A DNA stretch of 53,394 bases from a virus: IMG/VR virus record IMGVR_UViG_3300014913_000002, positions 1-53,394 of that record, one strand, 5' to 3'. The position numbers and the translations under genes are program-made. Of the stretch, positions 2,503-28,970 are shown one piece after another. Below the pieces are notes generated by a model. That model saw only the letters and a program-made list of their open reading frames with translations, did no database searches and was not told where the DNA came from. Each line of letters starts with the position of its first letter. The first letter of the stretch is position 1.

Positions 2503-2507
2503 ACCCT

Positions 2508-2924
2508 TTACTCCAGATTATCAAAATAAGCTCGTTTTTCGCCATTATCATATTCGCATGGATTCATTAATTGAACCAGATATATCTTCTTTGAAGCTGT
2601 GAAATTAGCCTCAATTTTCTCCCAAGCTCCATTTCCTGAAGCAGAAGCCTCGGCCATTATTTCACCTGTATCCGGGTCAATAATTCTCATGTAAACCTTT
2701 CCTGCCTCTGGCGGATATACATAAACCGAAACGGTTACATCTCCAGCATCGCAACCATACCAAACCTCACAAACTCCACCGTGCTTCAGCTCAAGAGCAT
2801 AAGAGCCAGCATACACAGTATTTGATTGAAGCCTGAATTTATTTTGCAGGGGCCAGAGATTCACGCCGTAAAACAAATTTTCAGACTCATTAATTACGAT
2901 TGAAACCCCATTATAATCAGCCAT
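2508..2924 (-). CDS. Small tail/baseplate protein, carbohydrate-binding-like fold
   Basis: The 138-residue protein starts at ATG 2924 (MADYNGVSIVI). The start lies three bases past the stop of the upstream gene, with AAGG before it; a longer TTG-start version would lack a ribosome site. The sequence (SGNGAWEKIEANFTA, a Trp/Tyr-rich core, ends near YFDNLE) resembles the jelly-roll carbohydrate-binding modules that close with a YFDDV/L-like motif. It may be a glycan-contacting tail appendage. Function is inferred from fold resemblance and position. Confidence 0.6.
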   Translation of the reverse strand: MADYNGVSIVINESENLFYGVNLWPLQNKFRLQSNTVYAGSYALELKHGGVCEVWYGCDAGDVTVSVYVYPPEAGKVYMRIIDPDTGEIMAEASASGNGAWEKIEANFTASKKIYLVQLMNPCEYDNGEKRAYFDNLE

Positions 2925-2926
2925 TT

Positions 2927-3697
2927 TTACGCCTTCTTTACGAGGCAACCGTTACTTCCACTATCTACCACCAACCACTCATATCCATCCAGACTTACAG
3001 TTTGTCCGTTGGTAAGATTGCTAGCATTATAATACTTGCATACCCCTTCAAGTTGGCCCATAATCTTTTTTGTATTAATATTTAAAATAGGTGTTTCAAA
3101 TATCATTACGGTTGAGGCTATTGTTAACAAAGATTGATAGCTTGAAGTATCTGCTCTTGATGCTAAGATTGTGCCTGAGTTACCGTTTTCATCAAAAAGA
3201 CATGCCCAGCCACTATAAGACCCCAAATTATAATATCCTAAGGGATTATAAGTAGAACCCGAACTTGTAGCCACAATAGCTATAGGCATATTTTTTGAGA
3301 CATCAAATCGAATCAACTGGCCAATGTAATAAGCATATCCAGAAGCCAAGTATACAAAAATAAACCTGTGGTTAGAGACGGCTATCCCGTATCCACCACT
3401 GGGTTTTCGGATATACATAGTATTGCTATTTATTTGAGTTAAGCTATTTCCTGTTCCACTGTGAGAACCAGAATCCCATCCTTCCCAAAGCTCTACGATG
3501 GCGTAATCTGCGTAATTATCATCTATTTTGACATAATAATCCACATTAGCCGAGGCATCATAGTTTCGATAAACTTTTGCATTTGTCCCTGCTGAGCCAT
3601 CATAGACCGACCAATAATCGTTTACCACAAGATAAGTATCCAAAATCGAAAGCAAAGCTCCTGCTGATTGACTCATTGTTCCGGTATTCCAAGCCAT
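2927..3697 (-). CDS. Tail-tip protein of unknown function
   Basis: The 256-residue protein starts at ATG 3697 after AAGGGG. It is rich in Tyr, Ser, Gly and Asn, without predicted membrane segments or catalytic motifs, and resembles beta-structured virion appendage proteins. It lies in the baseplate cluster, with its stop overlapping the ribosome-site region of the next gene. I do not recognise a family. A virion location is inferred from the operon. Confidence 0.6.
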   Translation of the reverse strand: MAWNTGTMSQSAGALLSILDTYLVVNDYWSVYDGSAGTNAKVYRNYDASANVDYYVKIDDNYADYAIVELWEGWDSGSHSGTGNSLTQINSNTMYIRKPSGGYGIAVSNHRFIFVYLASGYAYYIGQLIRFDVSKNMPIAIVATSSGSTYNPLGYYNLGSYSGWACLFDENGNSGTILASRADTSSYQSLLTIASTVMIFETPILNINTKKIMGQLEGVCKYYNASNLTNGQTVSLDGYEWLVVDSGSNGCLVKKA

Positions 3698-3707
3698 GTT
3701 TCACCCC

Positions 3708-4379
3708 TTACAATACAAATTTCCTTAAATCTTCAACTGCTATTTCTATATATAAATCCATCCAGGTAATATTTCCTGTCCAGCCATTCCAGAGGGTAAT
3801 ATAGTCGTTATAGCTGGCTCCCTTTTTTCCAATTTTAATAAGAATTTTCTTGGCCATGTAAATATAATCATGGAGTCTTTGGTCGAAATAGCCATCAGCA
3901 TTGATAAGTCGAATTGGCCCGATAGATTTCTGAATTCCCCCTTCTGAAAAATCAGATATAGCAAGATTTATTTCAGGAATGCTGGCATCATCCAAAAAAG
4001 GCAGATAAAATTTCCCATTGAAGACAATCTCATCAGGATGCACATATTGTTTATTTGTATAATATTCCCACCAGTATGAAGCGATTATGTAGCTTCCGCC
4101 ACCCGGGTCATCAGAGCCGGATGTATGGACATAGAGGCGATTACTTGAGCTGTCGTAATACCAACTTGAGGCGTTGGAGTCGCAATCTGATAAACTTGCT
4201 CTTTCGGTGTAATCCGTGCCATTCTCCTGGACTCGGGATGGCTTGCCTTCTGGGTGGGAAAGGTAGTAACAATTCGTATATGTTCCGTCTTGTGTCCAAC
4301 TCTCGGTATCAAGACGTCTAGCTGGCTCTATTTCTATCAAGAAAACAAGGTCATCTTGTTGAGTAAAAGAAACAGACAT
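3708..4379 (-). CDS. Baseplate-cluster tail protein
   Basis: The 223-residue protein starts at ATG 4379, one base past the stop of the previous gene, with GAGGAGG just upstream. Residues 110-223 (VFNGKFYLPFLDDASIPEIN, then ISDFSEGGIQKSIGPIRLIN) look like a domain found in tail proteins that connect hub and distal-tail components. No enzyme motif is seen. It is one of three similarly sized proteins between tape measure and hub. Confidence 0.6.
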   Translation of the reverse strand: MSVSFTQQDDLVFLIEIEPARRLDTESWTQDGTYTNCYYLSHPEGKPSRVQENGTDYTERASLSDCDSNASSWYYDSSSNRLYVHTSGSDDPGGGSYIIASYWWEYYTNKQYVHPDEIVFNGKFYLPFLDDASIPEINLAISDFSEGGIQKSIGPIRLINADGYFDQRLHDYIYMAKKILIKIGKKGASYNDYITLWNGWTGNITWMDLYIEIAVEDLRKFVL

Positions 4380-5129
4380 TTACCGAGCCTCCTCTAATTC
4401 AAGACGGAGTTCATATTTGTCAGAGTCGGGCATATTAGCTACAACCCAAGGCGTAGTATTTAAAACATAATAGGTGTTAGACGATGGAGAAGACGAATCG
4501 GCACAGAAGAAATATGGGATAGACTGACCCACGGAATCAAAGATAGTTTCAAGATTGGATTTGTCGGTTGAGGTTAAGCCCCGGAAATTGTAAGAAAAAC
4601 GTTTATAGCGGTCTTTCTGGTTTGTGGCGATCTGGCCGTTTGAAGAAAAAATAATCCCTGATGGGTCAATATATTGAAATTCGAAACCGTATGAATAAAC
4701 CCTTGATAATTCTACATGACCACCTAAAAAGACCCTTCCCACAAGTAAATAACCATCGCTATTTCCGGCATCATCAATATAAATTCTCCACCAGCGGTAA
4801 TTTTGAGCAGAAGACCAGAATTTTACAATTACATCTGAGGTTATATTCAAAGTTTCATCCACCGGTGGGGATGTCCAGCTATCCGAGGAGTTGGCCTGAA
4901 TTTTCAGCGTAGCCCCGGTTGTGAAGTTATGATATTTGATTGCGAAAGCCTTAATATCCTGAGCTGATCCTAAATCAATTTTCAGCCACTCTCCGGACAC
5001 CCCGGTTGATTTCCAGTATTTCTTCCACCAGTGATGCTGAGTATTTGAGGCTGGGAATTCACTATCCTCTGAAGATGCGGTTAGGGTTCCACCATCCCAG
5101 AGATTGTTATACATAAATCTTACTGCCAT
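4380..5129 (-). CDS. Distal tail-like protein with discoidin-like N-terminus
   Basis: The 249-residue protein starts at ATG 5129 after AGGAT, directly after the tape measure gene as expected of a distal tail protein. Residues 5-130 (TASSEDSEFPASN, WWKKYWKSTG, WLKIDLGSAQDIKAFAI) match the pattern of F5/8 type C (discoidin) domains, which bind carbohydrate or lipid. The C-terminal part has a distal-tail-like beta pattern ending YELRLELEEAR. It could therefore both shape the tail tip and touch surface glycans. Confidence 0.65.
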   Translation of the reverse strand: MAVRFMYNNLWDGGTLTASSEDSEFPASNTQHHWWKKYWKSTGVSGEWLKIDLGSAQDIKAFAIKYHNFTTGATLKIQANSSDSWTSPPVDETLNITSDVIVKFWSSAQNYRWWRIYIDDAGNSDGYLLVGRVFLGGHVELSRVYSYGFEFQYIDPSGIIFSSNGQIATNQKDRYKRFSYNFRGLTSTDKSNLETIFDSVGQSIPYFFCADSSSPSSNTYYVLNTTPWVVANMPDSDKYELRLELEEAR

Positions 5130-9152: not shown

Positions 9153-11708
9153 TTAGAACCTGTTTATAACTGAATTTATGTCCCATTTCTGATAAAAATA
9201 AACCGGACTAGCCTGTCGTCTATGTCGTAAATACTCTAAATCAGGCTTGCTTCTCATGTGAATTGTTTCAGAATCCAAACAAACTGCAACTTTCCACCCA
9301 GAATGTTTCATAAGTGAAAGAAAAAAATCCATGTGTTCGTATTCTACCTTGATACGATTGTCCCACTTTACATCATCAAAAACTTCTCTCCGGGCCAAAA
9401 AGAAATTCGGAACCTGGTCAGCGTAGAGGAAATAAACACCATCAACTTGATGTATTTCCTTCTTTGACGGATAGCGGAAAAGAGTCTTGTCCTTCACGTT
9501 TAAAATCAGACCCTTGTTGTAATTTTCGTTGACATAGAAATTCCCGTCTGGCTCGTTTCGGAGAAGCCCGGAGACAATACCAATTTCATCATCGCTATCA
9601 AGGACTTTCTTCATATTTTCAATGGCTTTCCCATTGGTAAGCAAAATATCGTCATCGAGGATTAAGATATAGTCCTCGGTTACCCGGCTAACAATGGCAT
9701 TTCGGCCAACCGATATTCCCGAACCAAACGGAAGCCGGATAACTACGTGACCGTTTCGCTCCAATTGCTGATATAAATATTCTTTCTGGTGCGATATTCG
9801 ACCATCATCAGCGATATAAAGCCGGTATGGAAACGGAAAATTTTCCTCTATTCCCTGAATACACCGCAGAAATGTTTCTTCTCTGAGAAAGGTTTTTATC
9901 CCGATGGCAATGGGTTGGCCTTTCTTTCCCCCGGCTCTTTTCCCTCTGTTTCTTATAACTTCTCCACGCCGGATTTTCTCTTTTATGAGGCTTGAGTTAA
10001 TGTCTTTGGTATAAGGCAAGAATACCGCTTTTCCACCAAAGACTCGGACAAACTCTTCTCCAGGAATATGGTCCCAATCGTCACCGTGAACAATATAGTC
10101 AGGATGAATGCTGAGCCTCTGGAAATCCCGGGTAGGGTCGGGATCGTGTTGCTCTATAACCTCATCCACTATGGCCAGAGCTTCAATAATCCGCTTTCTC
10201 TGCTCAAAAGGAATAATCGGTGAGTCTTTGTATTTTCGTGTTGCCCGGTCGGTCAACACCCCCACAATTAGATAACTACCCAGTTTTTTAGCCTTCTCCA
10301 AAATATTCAAATGCCCGACATGAAACAAATCCCACACCCCACCAACAAAAACAGTCTTATTCTTTTTGAAAAACGCCGGGTCTATTGCCTGACAATCAAT
10401 CCAGTATTTGTAATCTTTCTTTGGTACTCGCCAATCTTTACCATACCGGTGTTCAAGATATTTCTCTGGCGGACTTGGAACAAAGCATCTTATGTTCCGA
10501 AACAGTATTTCTTCCAGCTCTTCAAAAAGCTCTGCCGGGAAGACATGGGGGAGAAATTTGTCATATTTCCCAGAAGGACCTGGTCCAAAAGCACCATGCC
10601 ACCAGATGTTGCCTTTTTTGAAAAAGAAAAACAGGTCAACTTTAATCCCTTTCCAGCGAAAGCTCAGCTCAATTTTCTTTCTTCCCCATCGCCATTCTTT
10701 GTAAAACTCAAAGCCGGCATCCAAGAATCGCTTCTTTAGTTTGTCCCAATGTTTTAAGTTCCCTGGTGCTATACCGATGTCTATGTCCGGATCATGACTG
10801 ATAAAATCCTTTTCCCGGATTGCCCCAAGACACGTCCCAGCTTCAAGCCACCATTTGATTTTTTCTTCCTCTAGAATCCTAACGGCCTTTTCTAATGCCT
10901 CGTCTTTTTCGCTATAATCAAATTTTCCCATAGTGTCATACCGTAAGGGATTTATTTTGTTAAACGAACTTATCGAGTAAGTTACTCCCCATTTTCGGCC
11001 AAAGAGTCGCCAGCCAACCGGCCGCTGGCGGTATTTTAGATACTCCGTGTTCTCTTTATTTGAATCATGAACCATGTAAACATCCGGGGTGTAAGCCACT
11101 TTCCACTTTGAGTCATATTTAACTCTAAGAAAGAAGTCCGAATGCTCAAGGGCGGTTTTAAATTGCTCGTCCCATTTTACCTTATCCCAAACCGCCCTCC
11201 GCATCATAAAGACATTTAAAATTAAGTCACAGAGAAAATAATTTATTCCGTCAACTGCCCGCCACTCCGGATTTTCTACTTTCTCAATATAATGGGTGTC
11301 ATTCTCAATCCAGGTATTTGCTTCATAGTGTTGTTCATCTCCATCTGGGGTTATAAGAAGCCCCCCGACTATTCCAACATCCGGCTCAGCATCCAGGATT
11401 TTCCGCCAGCACTCAAGCTTGGTTTCTTTTGTGAAGATAATATCGTCTTCACAGATGACTATAAATTCATATTCATCTGGAATTCTTTTTAAACTCTCAT
11501 TCCGGACGCCAGCCACCCCCAGGTCAAAGGGAAGCTCAAAAAGGACGCAATTGTATCTTTCTGCGAACTTTGTTTTCTTTTCTGATGGCCGACCGTTATC
11601 ACCGATAAAAATCGGGATGTCTTTGTAATATTTCCGGATTGACTTTATACATCGAAAAAGAAGCTCATCCCTGAGAAAAGTTGTAACAAGAATAGCCGTG
11701 TCTTTCAT
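9153..11708 (-). CDS. Four-domain sugar enzyme: glycosyltransferase, LicD, cytidylyltransferase, glycosyltransferase
   Basis: Translation most likely starts at ATG 11708, in an ATGA overlap with the upstream stop, giving 851 residues. Visible domains: residues about 4-245, GT-A type glycosyltransferase with an acidic EDD motif near 87; about 270-435, LicD-type phosphotransferase with GTCLGAIREKDF and DPDIDIG; about 452-585, a nucleotidyltransferase of the glycerol-3-phosphate cytidylyltransferase type, with HVGH near 463 and YTKDINSSLI near the end; about 600-851, a second glycosyltransferase with LILDDDI. Family knowledge suggests it activates a phospho-alcohol with CTP and attaches it and sugars to a glycan. 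Being inside the tail operon suggests virion or surface decoration. Substrates are unknown. Confidence 0.85.
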   Translation of the reverse strand: MKDTAILVTTFLRDELLFRCIKSIRKYYKDIPIFIGDNGRPSEKKTKFAERYNCVLFELPFDLGVAGVRNESLKRIPDEYEFIVICEDDIIFTKETKLECWRKILDAEPDVGIVGGLLITPDGDEQHYEANTWIENDTHYIEKVENPEWRAVDGINYFLCDLILNVFMMRRAVWDKVKWDEQFKTALEHSDFFLRVKYDSKWKVAYTPDVYMVHDSNKENTEYLKYRQRPVGWRLFGRKWGVTYSISSFNKINPLRYDTMGKFDYSEKDEALEKAVRILEEEKIKWWLEAGTCLGAIREKDFISHDPDIDIGIAPGNLKHWDKLKKRFLDAGFEFYKEWRWGRKKIELSFRWKGIKVDLFFFFKKGNIWWHGAFGPGPSGKYDKFLPHVFPAELFEELEEILFRNIRCFVPSPPEKYLEHRYGKDWRVPKKDYKYWIDCQAIDPAFFKKNKTVFVGGVWDLFHVGHLNILEKAKKLGSYLIVGVLTDRATRKYKDSPIIPFEQRKRIIEALAIVDEVIEQHDPDPTRDFQRLSIHPDYIVHGDDWDHIPGEEFVRVFGGKAVFLPYTKDINSSLIKEKIRRGEVIRNRGKRAGGKKGQPIAIGIKTFLREETFLRCIQGIEENFPFPYRLYIADDGRISHQKEYLYQQLERNGHVVIRLPFGSGISVGRNAIVSRVTEDYILILDDDILLTNGKAIENMKKVLDSDDEIGIVSGLLRNEPDGNFYVNENYNKGLILNVKDKTLFRYPSKKEIHQVDGVYFLYADQVPNFFLARREVFDDVKWDNRIKVEYEHMDFFLSLMKHSGWKVAVCLDSETIHMRSKPDLEYLRHRRQASPVYFYQKWDINSVINRF

Positions 11709-11935
11709 TTGTTCCATCGCAAAATGATATGCCAGCTTCCCTTGATACACCCTTTCTCAAAATGGTCAAGGTGAGCATGGGGATAAAATAATGCCTCGGT
11801 CAGGTTTGTAATATGCTTTCCGTCATCCGGCATCAGCTCGTAGTTGTCTTCAAGTGCAAAGACAGCCGGCTGGCCACATTTAGGGCATTCTCGCCACTGA
11901 AAGCGTCCTTGTTTGTCGGTATAGGTTTTTATCAT
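11705..11935 (-). CDS. Small zinc-binding-like protein
   Basis: The 76-residue protein contains CPKCGQPAVFALED near its N-terminus plus later His and Cys residues (HAHLDHFEKGC), a pattern that could bind one zinc. Its stop overlaps the start of the four-domain sugar enzyme (ATGA), so the two are co-translated. It resembles the 75-residue protein at 47870-48097, which also has a CPYCG motif followed by a GCEHFDHF segment. The two appear paralogous. Function unknown. Confidence 0.65.
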   Translation of the reverse strand: MIKTYTDKQGRFQWRECPKCGQPAVFALEDNYELMPDDGKHITNLTEALFYPHAHLDHFEKGCIKGSWHIILRWNK

Positions 11936-16362: not shown

Positions 16363-16785
16363 TTATGGTAAGCTTGAAGAGCCGTAGCGTGCTCTGCCCT
16401 GAAGCAGAATGCCGGCAATATATTCTTGTCCATCAGCATCATCGGTGCTTACTCGGAAACCCACATATCGATAATTGGGGCTAAGCTCTTCAGCTCGAAC
16501 TTCAGCTTGGAGAACATCTTTTACAGAAGTTCCGGTAGAGGTAAAGGTATCGGTTTTTCCTGAGATGGCCTGAGCATTTGCTCCACTGGAAGAAGTTGCT
16601 TCAAGTAACTGCAGAGTGATTTTCTGGCCATTGGCGACATTTGTGGCAATCACATAGGCCACAACCGCATCATAGTATTTCATGTCCACAAAAGTAGCAG
16701 TTTCCACCTTGTCATTGGTTTCTCCACCCAGAGCAGAGGAGAAAACACCATAGGCCGGTTTGTAGTTTTCTTTGAACTTGTGCAT
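16363..16785 (-). CDS. Head decoration protein candidate
   Basis: The 140-residue beta-rich protein (YDAVVAYVIATNVANGQKIT, YRYVGFRVSTDDADG, AGILLQGRARYGSSSLP) directly follows the two capsid genes, starts at ATG 16785 after TAGGAGGGTAG, and precedes the terminator. The pattern is that of small proteins found next to HK97-type capsids that coat the head surface. Decoration is inferred from fold pattern, size and place. Confidence 0.7.
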   Translation of the reverse strand: MHKFKENYKPAYGVFSSALGGETNDKVETATFVDMKYYDAVVAYVIATNVANGQKITLQLLEATSSSGANAQAISGKTDTFTSTGTSVKDVLQAEVRAEELSPNYRYVGFRVSTDDADGQEYIAGILLQGRARYGSSSLP

Positions 16786-16803: not shown

Positions 16804-17841
16804 TTATGAAGAAGTCGTCAAGCATACAAACGGCGAAACCGTGCTTCCGCCACGCCTTGGGGTAATAGGTCCCTGTGGAACAGGTTGGCCATCCACCCGG
16901 AGGACGATTTTCCAGAATGTCTCGTTCTGGAGGAAGCCGTAGTTCCCGCCGTAATTCACGTGTCTTGACGACGCCACTATCAATTCCCTGTCGAATATGA
17001 CGTATTGTCCGAAGTCAGCCAGAATAATGTCTCCCGTTGTCCCCATAGCAGAGCATTTTTCGGTGACAATAATCGGCCGGCCGAGAATCTGCATCTTAGC
17101 CAAATCAATTACAGAAGCAGGATTGGCCGCATTGGCTGTCAGCTCCATCAACTCAGAAAGAACGCTCTGATTGACGAGCCAAACCGCCATCTGCCAGCTT
17201 CCAGGAAGAAGTCTCTCGGCCATATTGCCAATATCGGCTAGGTCAACTTTGGAGTTGGCTGTCCTGGTCACCGGAATCATTGCCCCGGAATTCATAATCC
17301 CCAGTGGCTGTCCGGAACCGGTTCCCCAGATATAGGCCTCGTCCTCATAGAACCGGATTGCCCGACCAAAAGCCTGGAGGAAGAACTGCTCGAACTTTTC
17401 GACGTCATTTTCAAGGCTATTGGAGACAAAAGCTCCAACCACACCTTCATGAGCTGTGAGTTTCAGGTTGCCCAGTGACGGATCAGAAACATTAGCCGCT
17501 TTATCGCCAGCTTCTTCCAACCAGGTCATGGTAATTCCGCCAAAAATATTGGAACTCCGGTCAGAATCTACAAGGACTCGGACATTCAATGTGTCTGAGT
17601 TTCCAGGTATCCGGATTGCTCTGCTTCTGACAATAGAGTTTTCTAGGGCAACGGAGAGAATCTGGTCTGCCCATTTTTCAGGAACGAGGACACCGCCCGC
17701 TGAGTCGGTGCCCTCGCTCATTGTTTTCTGGAACAATTCGTCTATTCGACTATCCCTTGCCTCCCCATCCAGATATTTCCGGGTGGCGACAAGGAACTCA
17801 CCAAGACTGCGAAACCCACCTGTGAGTTTTTCTTCACTCAT
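16804..17841 (-). CDS. Second HK97-type major capsid protein
   Basis: The 345-residue protein starts at ATG 17841 after GAGGTG. From GTDSAGGVLVPEKWADQIL to the end (VLRVDGQP, ITPRRGGST) it follows the first capsid protein segment by segment, including A-domain, P-domain (EDEAYIWGTGSGQPLGI) and the C-terminal PITPR motif. It lacks most of the charged N-terminal delta region of its neighbour. It could build pentamers or a subset of capsomers. Both copies look intact. Confidence 0.85.
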   Translation of the reverse strand: MSEEKLTGGFRSLGEFLVATRKYLDGEARDSRIDELFQKTMSEGTDSAGGVLVPEKWADQILSVALENSIVRSRAIRIPGNSDTLNVRVLVDSDRSSNIFGGITMTWLEEAGDKAANVSDPSLGNLKLTAHEGVVGAFVSNSLENDVEKFEQFFLQAFGRAIRFYEDEAYIWGTGSGQPLGIMNSGAMIPVTRTANSKVDLADIGNMAERLLPGSWQMAVWLVNQSVLSELMELTANAANPASVIDLAKMQILGRPIIVTEKCSAMGTTGDIILADFGQYVIFDRELIVASSRHVNYGGNYGFLQNETFWKIVLRVDGQPVPQGPITPRRGGSTVSPFVCLTTSS

Positions 17842-17853
17842 TGTTTCACCTCA

Positions 17854-19086
17854 TTAGCTAGTGCTGGAGAGAGTCACAAAGGGAGACAGGGTATTGGAGC
17901 CATTCCGAGGAGTGATGGGACTTGCAAGCCAAGGCTGACCGTCAACCCGGAGCACAAACCGCCATGCAGTGCAGTTGGTGGTGAAGTATACATGGGTTGA
18001 AGCATCAATGGTCAGGGTCTGGCGGTCTCCGATGAGGTAGTAACCGAAATCAAATACGCCAATATCACCCTCAGAACCCAAGGCGCTCATCTTTTCCGTC
18101 ACAAAGAAAGGACGGCCAAAGATGGTACCAGGAATCGATTTTGCGGCTCCCTGGTCACGGTTAATCCAAACGAGATTGTGTCCACTGGCTTGAGCGGCGT
18201 TGCCAGCGCCCATCTTCATCAGCTCAGGGAGAACCTCGGGGTTAAGCAACCAGATTGCCCGGCTCTGAGAAGAGGGGAGCAGTCGAGACCACATGTTCAC
18301 TAGGTCGTTGTAATAGACCTTGTTGTTGGCCTGGCGGGTAACCGTGATGGTGCAGGGTGCATTTAGAATACCCAAGGGTTCACCGCCACCAAGACCGCTG
18401 ATGAAGGCGACATCCTCGTAGTAAGCCCATGCTTCACCGAAAGCCCGGCGGATGAAAGATTCAAGCCCGATAGCCGCATCGGCCAGCAAGGCATTAGAAG
18501 CCTTGGTGTAACCGGCTAACTGGTGGGCGGTGAGCTTGCAGTTTCCCCACTTGGGTTCAGAAGCAGTCATGGTGCTGGTCTCACCTTCCCAGTAAGCCAC
18601 AACGCCACCGAAGACGCTTGAGGCATGGGAAGTGTCTTCAACCCGAGGGATATTAATGGTGTCAGAGCTCATCGGAATAATCATGGCACCATTAGCCCGA
18701 ACAATTGCCTTCTCGAGTCCAATCTGGAAAATCTGGTTTTTGTATTCTTCAAAGACCAAGAATCCACCGGCGCTATCGGTGCCCTCAGTCATGGTTTTCG
18801 ATTCAGGTGGAGAAGCAATCTTCCCCGAAGAGTCAACATAGACCAGCCGCTCATCATGCTGGCCGCCCTGTCGGTAGTTGTAAACTGCAGTCAGAAATTC
18901 ACCGAAGCTCTTGAACTTCTTTTCCTTGGCCGCTTTGTTAACTTCCTCTTCTTCTTTACTAGGTGTGAATTTCCCAAGTGCGTCTTGAATTTGTTCTTTC
19001 AGCTGGGCGGCAATGTACTCATCGGCGGTCTCTTTGACTCTATCTTCAATATATTTTTGAAGTTCTTCTTTGGTCATTTTCGTCAT
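17854..19086 (-). CDS. First HK97-type major capsid protein
   Basis: This 410-residue protein (an ATG at 19077 is better placed from AGGAG, giving 407) has a charged helical N-terminal delta/scaffold region of about 100 residues, then GTDSAGGFLVFEEYKNQIF and the HK97-fold domains, ending ITPRNGSNTLSPF. The delta region is expected to be removed by the prohead protease encoded upstream. It is preceded by a long structured leader (19087-19577) with a tRNA. It is the likely main shell protein. Confidence 0.9.
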   Translation of the reverse strand: MTKMTKEELQKYIEDRVKETADEYIAAQLKEQIQDALGKFTPSKEEEEVNKAAKEKKFKSFGEFLTAVYNYRQGGQHDERLVYVDSSGKIASPPESKTMTEGTDSAGGFLVFEEYKNQIFQIGLEKAIVRANGAMIIPMSSDTINIPRVEDTSHASSVFGGVVAYWEGETSTMTASEPKWGNCKLTAHQLAGYTKASNALLADAAIGLESFIRRAFGEAWAYYEDVAFISGLGGGEPLGILNAPCTITVTRQANNKVYYNDLVNMWSRLLPSSQSRAIWLLNPEVLPELMKMGAGNAAQASGHNLVWINRDQGAAKSIPGTIFGRPFFVTEKMSALGSEGDIGVFDFGYYLIGDRQTLTIDASTHVYFTTNCTAWRFVLRVDGQPWLASPITPRNGSNTLSPFVTLSSTS

Positions 19087-19200: not shown

Positions 19201-19226
19201 GGTGCCGCTTAGTTTAAAACGGCACC
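19201..19226 (-). other. Hairpin in the capsid leader
   Basis: Perfect seven-base arms GGTGCCG (19201-19207) and CGGCACC (19220-19226) enclose a 12-base loop. There is no U-run, so it is unlikely to be a terminator. It lies 115 bases before the capsid start. Confidence 0.55.
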
Positions 19227-19418: not shown

Positions 19419-19424
19419 GAGATT

Positions 19425-19496
19425 TGGAGCTGGCCGGAGTCGAACCGGCGTTTTCCGGTGTGCAAGACCGGAGCCTTCCCTCTAGACCACAGCCCC
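19425..19496 (-). tRNA. tRNA-Ala (anticodon TGC)
   Basis: The 72-base cloverleaf is complete. The acceptor stem GGGGCTG/CAGCTCC contains the G3-U70 wobble that identifies alanine tRNAs. The D-stem is GTCT/AGGC, the anticodon stem CCGGT/ACCGG with loop CTTGCAC (anticodon TGC), the variable loop five bases, and the T-arm GCCGG-TTCGACT-CCGGC, with discriminator A. CCA is not encoded. It reads GCA codons. It lies inside the leader between the protease and capsid genes, transcribed with them. Confidence 0.93.
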
Positions 19497-19499
19497 ATA

Positions 19500-19577: not shown

Positions 19578-21362
19578 TTACTCGATTTTCCCCTGGAGCT
19601 TCTTGATAGTCTGGTCAATAGTATCTTTGATAACCTCACCAATATTTAGCGACTTGAAGGCATTGTTGATTTTGTCTTCAACCAGCTTTTCAATTTCTTT
19701 CTTGTCCGGTTCCGGCTTTAGATTGACGTTCTCAATATCAATGTCTTTTCCGTCATCTTTTCCTTCGTCTTCGTTTCCTCGTTTGTCAGCCGCTAACACC
19801 TCTTGAAGCGCCGCAATAGCCTTTTTGATGATTTCCCGGTTCTTCTTACTCAGCACTCGGCCTTCTTTCAACTCGGCAATCCTCTCGTCTTTTTCAGCGA
19901 TAATCTTTTCATATTGCTCCCGAATCATATTGGCAATTTGCATCAGCTTTTCTTCCGGGTCTTCTGGCTTCTCTTCGTAAAACTCAGGAAACATAGCCTT
20001 TAGCTCAGCCTCGGTGTATTCTCTGAATTCTGGCACGGGTTTATCGAACTGTTTATAATGTTTGGCCAGATGGTTATAGATGCCCTTTCGGTCAGAATCA
20101 GGAATGTTTACCCCACCCCTTGCACCAAGAAGTGCGGCCATAGCGGCGGCAACACCTTTCCAAACTGCTTTATGTCCTTTTGCTTTGTGGTGGGGTAATT
20201 TATAGCTAGATTTAATATCCGGTTTTTCCGAGTCATACCAGGCACACATTAATTTTAAATCAGAAACCTCGGCTTCTCGAACTTCCGCCGGGCCATTCCA
20301 GGGTGTATCCTCAGGCATCTTGCCCAGGTCTTTATATGGAATAACCCCCTTTTCTTCTAACTCTAAATCTTCAATTTCAATCTCATCTTCAATCTTAGTT
20401 TCCTCTTCCTTGTTAAGTTCCTCTAAGTCAATTTCCTGGTAAATTTCATCTATTTCAACGATTGTCTTTTCTTCCATTTCCTCTTTCCTCCCCAGCATTT
20501 TTTCATACCGACCGAGAATCCCCTTGTGTTCATCAACCCACCGTTGGGCTTCTTCCATTGTCCATTTGTCTTTGTCGAATAGATAAGTAATTATCTTCTT
20601 GCAATCTACGCAATAGAGAGCCTTTATCCCCTTTTTGGCTGAGATGGTAATGGTTCTGATTTTGTGTCCTTTGTGCTTGTCTGGATCATCCACCGGGATG
20701 CGGTGGTAATTTTCGGTTGTCTCTGGCTTGGTGTCTGCGTCAACAACAATCTCCTCTTCCTCGTCTTCAATCTCTATCTCCTCGAGCTCCAGGTCTTTCT
20801 TTAGCTGAACTGACTGAATTAAGCCCTTTCGGTAAGCCTCAACCACAAGGGCGTTTTCGTTGGCCGGTACAGGCACCGCTGAAACTTCAAGTAACAATAT
20901 TTTCTTGTGAATCTTCTCTTTCTCGTCATAATCCAAAGGAATAAACCCGATGGAAAACGCCTTCAAAAACCCTTCCCGGTAGAGTTGGTAAATCTCATTC
21001 GCAAATTGAGATTTTGAGAACTCAAATTTTGCGACCAGCCCTTCTTTCTTTCGTTTTACCCACATCGCCCGGCCAATAGGTGGGTCCATATAGCGGTGGG
21101 CCCACAAAAGGACCGGGTTCTTCAGGTACCCATCAAGCTGTATCCCCCTGGGATCAACTATTTCTCCATCTCTGTCTCGGTCGGCTGTTGAAACAATAGC
21201 GGTAACCGCCCTCTCCTCTTCCGAAGACTCTATTTTCTCGGATGTATAAAATTTGCGGATGAACTTTATTTCATCCTTTTTTATATGCAACCGTTGAGCA
21301 AGTTTACCGGCTTGCTCCGGATTAATGTCTAGGTAATTTATAACCTCGGTTGAAATTTGCAT
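19578..21362 (-). CDS. Prohead serine protease fused to scaffold-like region
   Basis: I start at ATG 21362 after AAGGGGGAACAG, giving 594 residues. Residues about 30-185 carry the caudovirus prohead protease pattern: AIVSTADRDRDGEIVDPRG, the catalytic His in LLWAHRY, Ser in FLKAFSIGFIP, then LLEVSAVPVPAN. A middle part has a Cys pair (LYCVDCKKI) and a short conserved phage domain (HHKAKGHKAVWKGVAAAMAA). The last 150 residues are coiled-coil and highly charged, as in scaffolds. It would cleave scaffold and capsid delta regions during maturation. Confidence 0.88.
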   Translation of the reverse strand: MQISTEVINYLDINPEQAGKLAQRLHIKKDEIKFIRKFYTSEKIESSEEERAVTAIVSTADRDRDGEIVDPRGIQLDGYLKNPVLLWAHRYMDPPIGRAMWVKRKKEGLVAKFEFSKSQFANEIYQLYREGFLKAFSIGFIPLDYDEKEKIHKKILLLEVSAVPVPANENALVVEAYRKGLIQSVQLKKDLELEEIEIEDEEEEIVVDADTKPETTENYHRIPVDDPDKHKGHKIRTITISAKKGIKALYCVDCKKIITYLFDKDKWTMEEAQRWVDEHKGILGRYEKMLGRKEEMEEKTIVEIDEIYQEIDLEELNKEEETKIEDEIEIEDLELEEKGVIPYKDLGKMPEDTPWNGPAEVREAEVSDLKLMCAWYDSEKPDIKSSYKLPHHKAKGHKAVWKGVAAAMAALLGARGGVNIPDSDRKGIYNHLAKHYKQFDKPVPEFREYTEAELKAMFPEFYEEKPEDPEEKLMQIANMIREQYEKIIAEKDERIAELKEGRVLSKKNREIIKKAIAALQEVLAADKRGNEDEGKDDGKDIDIENVNLKPEPDKKEIEKLVEDKINNAFKSLNIGEVIKDTIDQTIKKLQGKIE

Positions 21363-21383
21363 CTGTTCCCCCTTTTTGTGCAA

Positions 21384-21561: not shown

Positions 21562-22506
21562 TCAATCCTCGAACCAAGGACTTACCGCACACCGACACCC
21601 AGGATGACAGGGAGGGCTTGGAACATCTTCATAATCAAATTTCATGGTTCGCCGGTGTATTTTTCCATCCTCTTCCCACTCAACCGAAAATTCATCGCCT
21701 TGGTTGAAAAAGTTTTCCTCTACTGCAATTACTCGTCCATCCAACCGCTCGCAAAAGGGACAAGTTTTATCATCGAACATAGTTATCCAGATTTTTTTCC
21801 TCACCACTCCGCTCTGAATCATTGCCTCAACATTAGCCCGGTTGGTGGCCCGGAGTGCCTCGGTGCGGGCAATCATCTCGGAGCGGAGTTTATAAAAATT
21901 GTCATAGGTTTTATTGACACGCTTTATAAGCTGGGGAATCCCCTCCCCGGCCTCAATTCCTTCTTTTAGCTCTTTCTTGAGAAGAGCCACGTTTACTTCT
22001 TCCAGGCTCTCGGAGAACCGGGGGGTATATTGCTCAATCCATTCTTGAATCCGGGCTGTATCAACCTGGAAGACAGCGTCTGCCAAAAGCTCCTCAATGG
22101 CTGTCTGCCCTTCCTCGGCCAAAATCAAGGCTAGTATTTGAGCCATCTCATCAGACAGCTTCGCCTCAAATTCGGCCCGGGGATACATAACCATGTCAAT
22201 CATGCTTTCATCTTTTCTCTGAGAAAAATATTTCTTGAGCTTCTTCAGGTTGGCCACCAGGATTTTCTCTTCTTCCTTCCACACCTTGATAAGCATCTCT
22301 TTTATTTTTGGCTCATGCTTGGCCGTGCGTTTAAAGAGCTTTTCAAAATGAGCTTTCCTGGGGTCTTCCTCAAGGATTTGCTTTGCAATCTTTTTTGCGA
22401 TACTTTCTTTTATGGCCTCATATAGGTGGCCTTTTAGTGTATCTGTGGCCAATTCATTGGCCAGTTCGTTCAGTCGTTTATCAAGAAAGCCTAATCCTTT
22501 TTCCAT
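21562..22506 (-). CDS. Head morphogenesis protein (MuF / SPP1 gp7-like)
   Basis: The 314-residue protein has a long helical N-terminus and the diagnostic C-terminus of the MuF family: RTEALRATNRANVEAMIQSG, DDKTCPFCERLDGR, and SPPCHPGCRCAVSP, with cysteines that probably bind metal. These minor head proteins associate with the portal and may be ejected with DNA. The start at ATG 22506 overlaps the previous gene by 16 bases, implying coupling. Confidence 0.85.
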   Translation of the reverse strand: MEKGLGFLDKRLNELANELATDTLKGHLYEAIKESIAKKIAKQILEEDPRKAHFEKLFKRTAKHEPKIKEMLIKVWKEEEKILVANLKKLKKYFSQRKDESMIDMVMYPRAEFEAKLSDEMAQILALILAEEGQTAIEELLADAVFQVDTARIQEWIEQYTPRFSESLEEVNVALLKKELKEGIEAGEGIPQLIKRVNKTYDNFYKLRSEMIARTEALRATNRANVEAMIQSGVVRKKIWITMFDDKTCPFCERLDGRVIAVEENFFNQGDEFSVEWEEDGKIHRRTMKFDYEDVPSPPCHPGCRCAVSPWFED

Positions 22507-22781
22507 TTTTCTTGTGGTTTATAATCCTCGTCTTCCTTATTTGCCAAAATAACTATTGTCCCGGGGTTTATTGGATTAAATTTTTCTATCAAAAATTTTT
22601 CAAATTCCAATCTCTTATCAATGTCTTTCCCTTCAATATTAAATTCAATTATGAATTCATCGGGGTTCTCTTTTGTGCCAAAAACAATTCGCACCTCATA
22701 TATTTCTTTTAGGTGGTTCCGAATATATTTGTCCACCTCGGGTAAAATAGTGGTTACAAATTCCATGATTTGATTATTCAT
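22491..22781 (-). CDS. Small protein between portal and MuF genes
   Basis: The 96-residue protein starts at ATG 22781, overlapping the portal stop (ATGA). It has an alternating strand-helix pattern (EIYEVRIVFGTKENPDEFII, LEFEKFLIEKFNP) and no known motif. It is coupled to both neighbours, so it is very likely expressed. Function unknown. Confidence 0.6.
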   Translation of the reverse strand: MNNQIMEFVTTILPEVDKYIRNHLKEIYEVRIVFGTKENPDEFIIEFNIEGKDIDKRLEFEKFLIEKFNPINPGTIVILANKEDEDYKPQEKWKKD

Positions 22782-24190
22782 GCCAGCATCTCCCTGAGTT
22801 TCTCTTTCGCCCGCTTTACTAGCTCCTCGGTAAGGATTTTCTTTGAATCCTCTACCGGAACCAGATTCATCGGAAACCAGGCCGATTCTCCCCAGGCTAC
22901 CGGTTCTTTACCAAGTTCCTGGCGAACCTCATTGATTTTCAAAATATTTGCCTTAGTGTATGCCTCCCGCTCTTTAAGCTGAAATTCTTTATCCTCAGGC
23001 ACCGGGTTATCAAAGGCCACAAATAGTCGTTCATCGAACATAGGAAGCAGACGCTCGTTCAGCTTTTCTTCAATCCGGCGGAGTCTAGGAAGGATGCCGT
23101 TTTTCATGTGACGGTAGTCGGCTACTTCGGCGTTAGCACGATTTATATCTTTGGAAACCAATGCTCCAATGGGAACATCGAAAGCGGCGGCGATCTCCTC
23201 ACGCATCAGTTTACGGCCTTCAATAAACGACAGTTCTTCCGGAGTCATGGTGTCCCGGTTAAACTTCAGTCCATAAGGAAGAATAACCGTCTTCCCGGAA
23301 TTGGCCGCACCGGAGTATTTTTGCTCCCAGCTCTCCCGGAACCGCTTTAGTGACGGTTCTGACACCCTTTCGCTTTGCTCTATTACTCCGCCGACCCGGG
23401 CTTTTTTCTCAAACAGTGCTTCCTCAAACTCATACATCTTCATATTTACATACACAGCATCAGCTATTCCCTGGACACAAGAAAAACCTTTAAACTGGTT
23501 TTTAGGGTTAGGATAGGTAAAGCGGATAACCTCGTCCCGGCTCAGCTCCACTTCCCGGTTCCCCCGGCGGTAAATATAGCCTTTGATAAAATCTTCTAGC
23601 GACTCGCCGGGAACCGGCTTTATATACTGGCTGGGAATAGGCCATATTTGAACCGGGACTTCCTGTCCGGCGATGTTAGCTTTCACCAAATACCAGTAGG
23701 CATCTCCGGTCAAGTCGAGAAAAAGCGATGTTATCTCCCACAAATCCCGGGCATTGATAAAAGGATTAACATTGGTCATTAAATCCAAAAAGGCATGGTC
23801 GGTGACTTCTTCCACCTCCTCGGCTTTTCTGAGAAACTGGTCGAGGCTATTGTTGCTATAGAGATATTTGAGCCGGCGGTTGTCAACCTGTTTTGTTTGA
23901 ATCAGCGGATATTTCTTCCCCTTCTTTTCTTTGGCTACATAAAGCCGGAGAGGGACGGAAGCCAACGTGGTAGCGTTCAGTGAAGCACATATATAAACCC
24001 AGCTCGTAAAATAGCTAATATATTCTTCAGATGTTCGGGGTTTCTTGTTCTGGAGTAACCCCTCTCCCCACAAGACAGGGTGCATCCAGGAAGAATCAGC
24101 GTTAAGTGGTGCGTCTGCCCAGTCAACGCCTTTTTTGTATAATCCCCGGAGTCGTCCGAGGCTATATATAATTTTCTCGATTGCGTTCAT
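22778..24190 (-). CDS. Portal protein (HK97 family)
   Basis: The 470-residue protein starts at ATG 24190 after GGAG. It follows the HK97 portal pattern: SYFTSWVYICASLNATTLAS with PLRLY, NPFINARDLWEITSLFLDLT, the G-DAYWYL motif, WPIPSQYIKPV, FDVPIGALVSKDINRANAEV, and RLLPMFDERL. It forms the dodecameric DNA gate at one capsid vertex and docks with TerL during packaging. Two operator-like palindromes lie just upstream. Confidence 0.9.
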   Translation of the reverse strand: MNAIEKIIYSLGRLRGLYKKGVDWADAPLNADSSWMHPVLWGEGLLQNKKPRTSEEYISYFTSWVYICASLNATTLASVPLRLYVAKEKKGKKYPLIQTKQVDNRRLKYLYSNNSLDQFLRKAEEVEEVTDHAFLDLMTNVNPFINARDLWEITSLFLDLTGDAYWYLVKANIAGQEVPVQIWPIPSQYIKPVPGESLEDFIKGYIYRRGNREVELSRDEVIRFTYPNPKNQFKGFSCVQGIADAVYVNMKMYEFEEALFEKKARVGGVIEQSERVSEPSLKRFRESWEQKYSGAANSGKTVILPYGLKFNRDTMTPEELSFIEGRKLMREEIAAAFDVPIGALVSKDINRANAEVADYRHMKNGILPRLRRIEEKLNERLLPMFDERLFVAFDNPVPEDKEFQLKEREAYTKANILKINEVRQELGKEPVAWGESAWFPMNLVPVEDSKKILTEELVKRAKEKLREMLA

Positions 24191-24276: not shown

Positions 24277-25446
24277 CTAGGGCAAAACAATCAGCTCATC
24301 TCTAATGCCGGCCCTCATTTCCTCAAGACCCATGACCATGTAGCGTAAAGAGTCCATTGCGTGGTCGTTCAGCTTTACTGGTTTATCTTTTTCCTCTTCC
24401 CACCGATAAGTTTCAAACTCATCAATCAGGTTTCGGCATCGCCGGCAAACCTTCAGCCGACCGGTCTTGATTCGTTCATTAACTTTATTTATCCCGATAT
24501 TTACATCATTGTCGGCTGATTGAATATCAAGCCCCATTGCTAGAAGCTCTTCAATTTCCCGCTTTCCTGAGGGGTCGGCAAAATAAGTTATCTCGGGGTC
24601 AAGTCGCTTTGCGTGTTCCTGAAGAAGTTCTCTTTCCTTGTAATGCTCATCATAAATAATCAGAACATCATCCGGACTAAGCGCCCCCCGGAGTGCCACA
24701 AACGGATTGTTGTAACCAAAGTCAATCCCACCCACCTTTAGCCAATCATCCGGCGGTTGAAAATCATCTATAATATGCTGGGGTCCAAAGTCGGGATAAA
24801 TTAGCCCTTCCGCCTTGGTGAACACCCCCTCATATCTCAGCTTAAATTGAATCTCGGTCAGAGTCCGCTTTGCCCTCTCGTATTCTTCTTTCGGGAAATA
24901 AGGATTGTCAACATTCCGGAACTGGATAAATTCATAGTCTGGATCGCCGTCTTTCCAACGTTTGTAAAGCTCGTGGTAAATCCAATTCAGGGCAATAGGA
25001 GTAAATGTCAAAAGAATCCTGCCCTTGGTGGCGCTTACTCGGCCTTGCATAATCAGCCAGGCATTGGGCTTCATGAGCGACGCTTCATCAGCCCAAATAG
25101 CTTTGGCTGTGATTCCTTCAATTGACTCCGGCTTCTCTGCTGACCGCAAAAAGAACATCCGGCCATCTATGGTCTCAAAGGTTGACTCGGCTTTGTTGTA
25201 AACCCCATATCCTTTTGGCACTATTTCAAAAAACTTGGTCAGCGTGCTTTGCTTTAAAATTTTGTAAGTAGGAGAAAGGATAATATATTCTCCCGGCCCC
25301 CGCTCTTGTGCCTCGTTCAGTATCCAGACCGACCCAAAGGTGGTTTTTCCTCCCTGCACCCCAGAACAAAAAGCTATAAATCGCTTCTTGCTTTCCCAGG
25401 CTTTCACCTGGAATGGATGAAGCCTTATTTCCAATACTCGAGGCAT
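24277..25446 (-). CDS. terL: Terminase large subunit
   Basis: The 389-residue packaging motor starts at ATG 25446 in a TAATG overlap with the small subunit. The ATPase half shows FCSGVQGGKTTFG (Walker A), AIWADEASL (Walker B/DE) and LLTFTPIALNW (coupling motif). The nuclease half has GIDFGYNNPF and a second acidic cluster (IIYDEHYKER), with LNDHAMDSLRYMVMG near the end. It translocates DNA into the prohead and cuts concatemers. It is a little shorter than many relatives but has all motifs. Confidence 0.92.
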   Translation of the reverse strand: MPRVLEIRLHPFQVKAWESKKRFIAFCSGVQGGKTTFGSVWILNEAQERGPGEYIILSPTYKILKQSTLTKFFEIVPKGYGVYNKAESTFETIDGRMFFLRSAEKPESIEGITAKAIWADEASLMKPNAWLIMQGRVSATKGRILLTFTPIALNWIYHELYKRWKDGDPDYEFIQFRNVDNPYFPKEEYERAKRTLTEIQFKLRYEGVFTKAEGLIYPDFGPQHIIDDFQPPDDWLKVGGIDFGYNNPFVALRGALSPDDVLIIYDEHYKERELLQEHAKRLDPEITYFADPSGKREIEELLAMGLDIQSADNDVNIGINKVNERIKTGRLKVCRRCRNLIDEFETYRWEEEKDKPVKLNDHAMDSLRYMVMGLEEMRAGIRDELIVLP

Positions 25447-27399: not shown

Positions 27400-28881
27400 C
27401 TATAAACCCAACTCTATTTCTTCAATCTTGTCTAAAGCTGATTTCCCGTTTTCTATGGCTTTTAAAACATCAAAAACTTTCTCTGACCACCCGGAAATAA
27501 GAAAAACATCATTATTGTTGACTTCCAGCGGAGTATTACCGTAACCGGCTAAATCAAAAAGATAAAGCTTTGCCCTAGGATTAATTGTTTGTTTATAGAT
27601 GCTCCACTCTTCTTTTAAATTCTTCCCCTGGAGACTAGAATCCCATAGCTGACAATCCGTAAAGATCATAATCTTATCAACAAAAAGCTCTTTTTGGTTT
27701 AGCCATTCAATAACTTTCCATCCATTTGTGCTATACCCGACTTCCCCCTCTCTTCTATGAAACTCATCAGCATTTCTTAGAATTGAATCTTTAGGAACAC
27801 CAATGACTTTCCAGGTATCCCCAAACATCCCCACAATTGCTTTTTTGCATTTTAAATTTAGCATCATCCCCAAAACGATGCCAATATCAAAATATTGAAT
27901 CTTTGACCGAGGGGAAACTTGGTTTTCCATTGAACCAGAAACATCACAAGCAATTAAAACATTCGAGTCGCTATCAATAGGAATATTCTCACAACTAGCT
28001 TTGATAGCTTTTTCAAGAGCGTCCTCAACAAGATTAAAATTAAAGCTGGCCACTTTTTTAATTTCTCGATATACGGCCAAAAACCTAAATGGCAACTGTT
28101 TCGATTTCTTTACCGCTTCCGGATTGCTTAAATAAGCCAAAACTTTATTAAGGTGTTCTCCGCTAACCTGGGCATTTAAAATATTTCGCAGGTTTCTCAA
28201 TAACGCCATATAGCCAACTTTGCCAGAATCAATCAGCTCTTCCCAAACTTCTTTGGTGTTTCCCCTCTCTGAAAGCTGGGTTTCCCAGGTGTATGGCGGA
28301 GTTAATTCATCATTTGCAATTTTCTTAAATAATTGCTCTTGTTCTTTGGTTCTTGGTTTGGGATGAGTAAGAAATAAAACATCTCTCAGCTTAATTTCCG
28401 TCTTCCGGTTATACTTAGCAAATTGATATTCATCAAATTTCAGAAAAGCCCTGGCAATTCCCTTCTGTAATTGTTTGGATAACTTGTTTAATTTTTCCTC
28501 TTTATCATTCGCCAACCAATAATAAGCCAGAATTTCATAAAGCTCGTCAGCCCGTTGAATGATTCTCTCTACCAGCCTGCTAACTAGGCTATCACCATTG
28601 TGGATTTTTGCCAATTCAACCGCTAACACCAAGGGAATGCTCCGCAAATACATTTTTTCCCTAGCATAAACAGCCAACTTAGCCACAAATTCAGCGGGAA
28701 CCTTTTTTATTAAATCCCTTATTTCACCGAGTTGAGAATTAACATCCTCATAAAATTTCGGCTGAAGTGAAGCCGTGCAAATACGTGTATAAAGCTCTAA
28801 TTTAGGCCACAGCTTATAAGCCGTTTCCCCCTCGTAATTGACGGTTTTGTTTTTACCCCTGGCTGGTTGAGAGAATCTCAT
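27400..28881 (-). CDS. rsr: Ro60/Rsr-type RNA-binding protein (TROVE plus VWA domains)
   Basis: The 493-residue protein starts at ATG 28881 after AGGAGG. Residues about 1-300 form the TROVE helical-repeat ring (YTRICTASLQPKFYED, IRDLIKKVPAEFVAKLAVYA, LVERIIQRADELYEILAYYW, MALLRNLRNIL). Residues 310-490 form a von Willebrand A domain with an intact metal site, DVSGS at 313-317. Ro60 proteins bind misfolded RNAs in the ring and Y RNAs on its outer face. In bacteria Rsr works with exoribonucleases in RNA decay and stress survival. Two candidate partner RNAs and a consensus promoter lie directly upstream. Confidence 0.9.
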   Translation of the reverse strand: MRFSQPARGKNKTVNYEGETAYKLWPKLELYTRICTASLQPKFYEDVNSQLGEIRDLIKKVPAEFVAKLAVYAREKMYLRSIPLVLAVELAKIHNGDSLVSRLVERIIQRADELYEILAYYWLANDKEEKLNKLSKQLQKGIARAFLKFDEYQFAKYNRKTEIKLRDVLFLTHPKPRTKEQEQLFKKIANDELTPPYTWETQLSERGNTKEVWEELIDSGKVGYMALLRNLRNILNAQVSGEHLNKVLAYLSNPEAVKKSKQLPFRFLAVYREIKKVASFNFNLVEDALEKAIKASCENIPIDSDSNVLIACDVSGSMENQVSPRSKIQYFDIGIVLGMMLNLKCKKAIVGMFGDTWKVIGVPKDSILRNADEFHRREGEVGYSTNGWKVIEWLNQKELFVDKIMIFTDCQLWDSSLQGKNLKEEWSIYKQTINPRAKLYLFDLAGYGNTPLEVNNNDVFLISGWSEKVFDVLKAIENGKSALDKIEEIELGL

Positions 28882-28899
28882 AATTCCTCCTATAAAATC

Positions 28900-28970
28900 A
28901 AGGGGGAACAAACGAGAGGGGGGAGGGATTTACTGTCCTGCCGAAGTATCCCCTCTCTCCGCCACCCCTT
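28900..28970 (-). ncRNA. Candidate Rsr-associated small RNA, copy B
   Basis: This 71-nt unit, just upstream of rsr, folds into one long hairpin: AAGGGG/CCCCTT at the base, then GAGAGGGG/CCCCTCTC, then GGA/TCC with loop CAGTAAA. It shares GGTGGCGGAGA, GGGATACTTCGG and TGTTCCCC with copy A, while its stem sequences differ in a compensatory way. It is read from the promoter at 29087-29115. A Y-RNA-like role is inferred from its place beside rsr. Confidence 0.65.

Follow-up and report, generated by a model that had tools for sequence, protein, structure and literature searches.

In most HK97-type phages the hexamers and the pentamers of the shell are formed by one shape-switching protein. Phage T4 is an exception, with a second capsid gene that adjoins the major capsid gene and with separate scaffold proteins. 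The T4 capsid gene is thought to have been duplicated to give gp23 and gp24, two HK97-fold proteins of about 20% identity that are cut by one protease, gp24 forming the pentamers and losing the shorter propeptide (10 residues vs 65 in gp23; PMC9958956). The other exception found is the satellite SaPIbov5, whose Ccm is a homologue, with a shorter delta domain, of the delta-domain HK97-type capsid protein (CP) of phi12; both are cleaved, Ccm losing residues 1-87 and CP residues 1-128, and Ccm is located at the pentamers of SaPIbov5 procapsids (PMC8569155). Two co-assembling HK97-fold shell proteins are also described for Family 2B encapsulins (PMC12407261). The tandem pair reported here, M1 and M2, would be a further instance of this type of two-protein HK97 shell, in a new form; it would be the third exception after T4 and one satellite.

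The pair lies in the IMG/VR virus record IMGVR_UViG_3300014913_000002, analysed over a stretch of 53,394 bases (the window). All head genes are on the minus strand, in the order terminase large subunit (24277..25446; PF03237, 6.1e-10), portal protein (22778..24190; PF04860, 3.5e-54), Mu F-like head protein (21562..22506; PF04233, 3.5e-19), S78 prohead protease with a long C-terminal extension (19578..21383; PF04586, 1.9e-9; PHROG head maturation protease, 7.9e-23), tRNA-Ala, M1 (17854..19086; PF05065, 3.7e-43) and M2 (16804..17841; PF05065, 2e-34). M1, with its long N-terminal delta-like region, is the predicted hexamer protein, and M2, with a short N-terminal region, the predicted pentamer protein. 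Past M2, on the same strand, follow a small head protein of 140 residues (16363..16785) and the head-tail genes. The small head protein matches phrog_28483, a family of unknown function, and is probably a decoration protein; a similar gene is found near the pair in 49 of 51 pair loci. The window also contains a tape measure profile match (5.8e-10) slightly below the model cut-off.

Both capsid ORFs are intact (M1, 410 residues; M2, 345 residues), separated by 12 nt and each preceded by a Shine-Dalgarno-like sequence. For M1 the second ATG is the likelier start, giving 407 residues as in contig L001, which holds a copy of M1 that is 92% identical. Both proteins match the mature-domain profiles of HK97-type major capsid proteins, PF05065 and TIGR01554 (major_cap_HK97), the latter at model positions 38-381 for M1 and at 87-380 only for M2; M1 also matches a PHROG major head protein. 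In BLASTP the two align at 44% identity over 361 columns (261 bits, E 3e-89), from the N-arm to the C-terminus with the GTDSAGG and ITPR motifs included. This bears out an earlier note on this DNA, which had proposed two tandem HK97-fold capsid genes whose products share the segments from GTDSAGG to ITPR. The absence of the delta region from M2, also claimed there, holds as a shortening and not as a complete loss: 43 residues remain before EGTDSAGG, compared with about 97 in M1. What M2 lacks is the front half of this N-terminal stretch, and an F-x-S-x-G-E-F-L helix is common to both. The region of about 97 residues in M1, a putative delta (scaffold) region that may be cleaved off, has predicted helices and is encoded downstream of the S78 protease gene.

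Compared with T4, M2 is likewise a second HK97-fold gene next to the major capsid gene with a shorter propeptide. M1 and M2 are, at 44% identity, more alike than gp23 and gp24, and unlike in T4, where the scaffold proteins are separate, a delta-type region is fused to M1. A search of PDB chains with the M2 profile at E 0.01 returned the RcGTA capsid protein as sole match, and no sequence relationship to gp24 was detected. While Ccm is encoded by a satellite that uses the helper capsid and redirects its shape, M2 is part of the phage's own complete head operon, beside M1 and with portal and terminase. Encapsulins of Family 2B are cellular compartments, and two-component encapsulins are marked by enzyme cargo and by the lack of packaging and tail genes; M1 and M2, in contrast, are flanked by genes for terminase, portal, protease and tail. 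The best identities in the phage collection are 41% to M1 and 33.5% to M2. The closest match to M1 is the major capsid protein of Streptomyces phage Dagobah (MT711977; 41% over 76% of the length), in which one capsid gene is annotated in the region as compared to the pair here. As the number of matching places equals the number of records for both M1 (195, 195) and M2 (60, 60), no record of that collection has two places. No cultivated phage carrying the pair was found, nor was a paper on it among the open-licence literature matches listed.

Structure prediction is consistent with the profile matches. An AF2 model of M2 built from 28 sequences (pLDDT 73) superimposes on the RcGTA capsid protein (6tb9_A4; VIA Z 15.8, rmsd 3.4, 241 aligned residues) and on HK97 prohead I (8fqk_D; Z 14.4, rmsd 4.1, 247 aligned). 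Residues 7-345 of the model cover residues 76-383 of 8fqk_D, in agreement with a cut-down delta region. M1 is modelled poorly (pLDDT 56), and the top Foldseek matches of its model are HK97-type capsids (E 6.1e-12). T4 gp24 is not among the 50 VIA rows, which says nothing for or against a relationship.

We then characterized the distribution of the pair in IMG/VR. A scan with relatives of M2 gave 80 rows; identity to M2 is 49% or more in the top 39 and then falls to 37%. An M1-type ORF lies upstream in all 36 of the M2-type rows that have upstream sequence (adjoining in 34, about 1.7 kb apart in L125 and L126); the other three of the 39 start within M2 at a contig edge. To avoid selection by M2 we scanned separately with an M1 alignment. 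Its best 80 rows comprise 59 with M2, five of the M1 clade without M2 and 16 lower-scoring single-copy outgroups (M1 score at most 442). Thus 59 of the 64 M1-clade rows among these best 80 are pairs; four (L182, L190, L220, L236) stop at M1, the contig ending no more than 84 nt beyond it, and the rearranged L199 ends 1.8 kb past M1, before M2 is expected in its gene order. L203 and L204 carry the small head protein followed by a glycosyltransferase between M1 and M2, showing that M2 is retained even where it is not adjacent to M1. The earlier note had called duplicate capsid genes uncommon; within this clade, judged from both scans, possession of the pair looks like the norm.

A first scan, based on A1, had returned mainly single-copy relatives, with more than one ORF in 9 of 104 loci (duplicates of one contig counted). 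The impression of rarity that it gave was discarded, since A1-based patterns miss most M1 proteins of pairs, and for this reason the scans were redone with the M2 and M1 alignments. These two scans overlap in contigs, and their 79 pair loci reduce to 51 distinct pairs, which were selected for full length so that broken copies are uncountable among them. The breaks seen in M1 of L003 resemble assembly gaps. An earlier set of 181 loci included 88 single-capsid loci with 1.5 kb or more flanking the gene on each side and 48 with less. L127, in which the start of M2 was misplaced, was omitted from A4 and A5. The gene-order variants map to 3012-5333 in L203 and 5234-6945 in L204, with L199 likewise a variant, and a glycosyltransferase-like gene near the capsid genes recurs in L009 (named by eye).

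In the phylogenetic tree M1 and M2 form separate clades with support values of 97 and 99, and no intact single-copy capsid protein falls within either. An earlier tree gave 97 and 100; its M2 clade included L133, which is an M2 truncated by the contig edge and labelled as single. The duplication is older than the split of all sampled pairs. M2 is on a long branch in the free tree, the tree joining M1 and M2 is 9.35 log units better, and a single clade of M1 and M2 is not rejected (p-AU 0.70). A duplication inside this lineage is therefore compatible with the trees and is not settled by them. Over the 51 pairs, distances within M1 correlate with those within M2 (r=0.80, reached by 0 of 2000 permutations), and the median M2/M1 distance ratio of 0.93 indicates similar rates. 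Two odd tandem pairs, L140 (2463-4739) and L146 (645-2975), have second genes with short N-termini (46 and 42 residues) and without the hairpin insertion of M2. These genes may fall outside the M2 clade, and do so in the trees, but the tree constrained to group them with M2 has the higher likelihood and is not rejected (p-AU 0.58), so that an independent origin of these pairs is not established.

The strongest same-phage co-variation between the two proteins maps to the putative protease site. In M1 this is the junction K97-G108 (18763..18798, minus strand) between the delta-like region and the mature part, and in M2 its counterpart K39-G50 (17692..17727, minus strand). Over the 14 residues up to the conserved GG, M1 and M2 from a single phage are 79% identical vs 59% for those of different phages, while the downstream mature region gives 41% vs 39%. 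The excess at the junction (0.22) is the highest of 82 windows (median 0.013, sd 0.040). It is also evident in a GH motif: in the 36 pairs whose M1 junction contains GH, M2 always has it too, and in the other 15 M2 never does. The same-phage excess persists within the GH (0.827 vs 0.752) and non-GH (0.705 vs 0.596) groups and was reached by 0 of 5000 permutations in each, although the permutations leave some relatedness and the figures are not probabilities. Recent gene conversion was considered as the source of this likeness and rejected, as codons at identical residues are shared no more often within phages than between them (0.379 vs 0.376). Since the duplication predates the pairs, the co-variation needs a cause acting on both proteins. 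The simplest would be one protease reading both junctions, with cleavage at these sites as its presumed outcome, and the S78 protease is the likely processing enzyme for both. Same-phage co-variation of this kind may serve more generally as a test, made from sequence, for a maturation protease common to two capsid paralogues.

M2 further differs from M1 in the length of two segments, which by topology would be a loop facing the capsomer centre and a loop facing the threefold contacts. The first, in the A-domain, has 42-48 residues in 51 of 51 M1 proteins (residues 279-323 here; 18118..18252, minus strand) and 33 in 49 of 51 M2 proteins (residues 221-253; 17083..17181, minus strand), the remaining two having 30 and 31; single-copy relatives mostly have 36-45. 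The second, a late hairpin that by its topology would be the P-loop, has 14 residues in every M1 (residues 361-374; 17965..18006, minus strand) and 16-27 in every M2 (residues 290-309; 16915..16974, minus strand). As this segment also has 14 residues in 115 of 118 single-copy proteins, the M2 hairpin is the derived form. Of the three exceptions, L101 and L236 are empty in the segment and L103 has 25 residues; L236, counted as single-copy, is a cut M1-clade row. The E-loop segment is kept in M2 (49-52 residues). N-terminal lengths in this comparison are stop-to-stop upper bounds. Family-specific fixed residues were also sought and dismissed: at 85% in both families only two columns qualified, both of them gap columns.

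Both genes are clearly under purifying selection. For M2 the dN/dS is 0.081 (window vs L001), 0.068 (window vs L004) and 0.083 (L001 vs L004); for M1 it is 0.045 in the one full-length contrast and 0.026-0.052 in four partial ones. The other head genes give 0.035 (portal), 0.051-0.058 (head-tail protein) and 0.064-0.068 (small head protein). All these values are rough because dS is about 1 or higher in most contrasts. Relaxed selection on one copy, named in the earlier note as evidence against a joint role, was thus not observed, with M2 at 0.068-0.083 although dS is near saturation.

The pair is real and conserved; it is almost certainly functional. Its retention by dozens of uncultured relatives suggests a shell of two dedicated proteins, one probably serving the flat faces and the other the corners. 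Conservation, co-inheritance, purifying selection and junction co-variation make the mixed shell or special pentamer protein raised by the earlier note the best reading of the genes. We consider it reasonably probable that the shell consists of M1 hexamers and M2 pentamers, with virion presence, cleavage and placement all part of the prediction. M1, carrying the full delta-like scaffold region, would form the hexamers, and M2, with its short propeptide, trimmed A-domain loop and longer late hairpin, eleven pentamers, the portal occupying the twelfth vertex. Both would join one prohead and be trimmed at like junctions by the S78 protease, whose gene lies a short way upstream. M2 is placed at the pentamers by analogy, because the propeptide pattern (about 97 vs 43) resembles that of T4 and of SaPIbov5 Ccm. 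The sequence results fit pentamers, fixed hexamer positions or random mixing alike.

Under random mixing, capsomers would contain both M1 and M2, in proportions that vary and without fixed roles, as for the two HK97-fold shell proteins of the Family 2B encapsulin of Streptomyces lydicus, which co-assemble in variable ratio with irregular tiling (PMC12407261). The junction co-variation is compatible with any such co-assembly, but the fixed M2 indels in two regions and the reciprocal monophyly suggest distinct sites for the two proteins instead of interchangeable subunits, and we regard this arrangement, the main rival model, as unlikely. It is quite unlikely that M2 forms pentamers in some particles only, setting the T number or the shape. 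Ccm offers the precedent of a shorter capsid homologue at pentamers that turns prolate procapsids into isometric ones (PMC8569155), yet it is satellite-borne, and a second capsid gene kept in the phage's own head operon throughout the sampled pair clade is more in keeping with a permanent component than with a switch used on occasion.

The short propeptide and altered loops are equally compatible with M2 as an assembly factor or a subunit at a special position, for example beside the portal. The HK97 fold of M2, its retained E-loop segment and its Z of 15.8 to a capsid subunit make this role very improbable, and we know of no capsid homologue restricted to the portal ring. That M2 is a surplus or decaying copy left out of virions is hardly credible given its purifying selection, deep conservation and co-inheritance with M1, even if a second capsid paralogue does stay out of virions in rudiviruses (PMC10848311). 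Returning to hexamers of M1 and pentamers of M2, some points weigh against this reading: single-copy relatives presumably build their pentamers from one protein, which makes a second protein dispensable in principle, the M2 profile gave no match to gp24, the M1 model is weak, and the second genes of L140 and L146 have no hairpin insertion. We see an evenly balanced case for the wider proposal that, independently of T4, an uncultured tailed-phage lineage has obligately divided its HK97 shell between a hexamer protein bearing the scaffold and a pentamer protein with little of it, the cleavage junction co-evolving in both. If so, each phage in the clade would offer a natural experiment on the loss of quasi-equivalence. 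With at least 51 distinct pairs and proteins still 44% identical, alignments of the pairs could then reveal the hexamer and pentamer determinants, which segment swaps between the two proteins could test.

Several further features were observed in and around these loci. The tRNA-Ala (19424-19497) lies inside the head operon upstream of M1; the window has no other Rfam match. At least one tRNA is present in 10 of 42 pair loci scanned, and its identity varies: Ala in L001 (5364-5437), Met in L009 (4708-4783) and a Gly-Ala-Pro-Trp cluster in L105 (3863-4169). A terminator-like hairpin on the minus strand lies between the tRNA and M1 (19201-19226); the window has three such hairpins vs a mean of 4.3 by chance, hence no excess. 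In L002 the Mu F-like gene (1619-3520) carries an intein-like insert and is crossed by an antisense ORF resembling a homing nuclease (2507-3439, by eye), and in L009 the protease ORF of 1017 residues (1652-4705) includes an AAA+ ATPase-like stretch (by eye). The window also encodes a Ro60-like protein (27400-28911; TROVE 2.7e-40 and vWA), with no Rfam match to the Y-RNA family in the window, and, amid the structural genes, an 865-residue fusion protein (9153-11750) with a glycosyltransferase 2, a LicD and a cytidylyltransferase domain.
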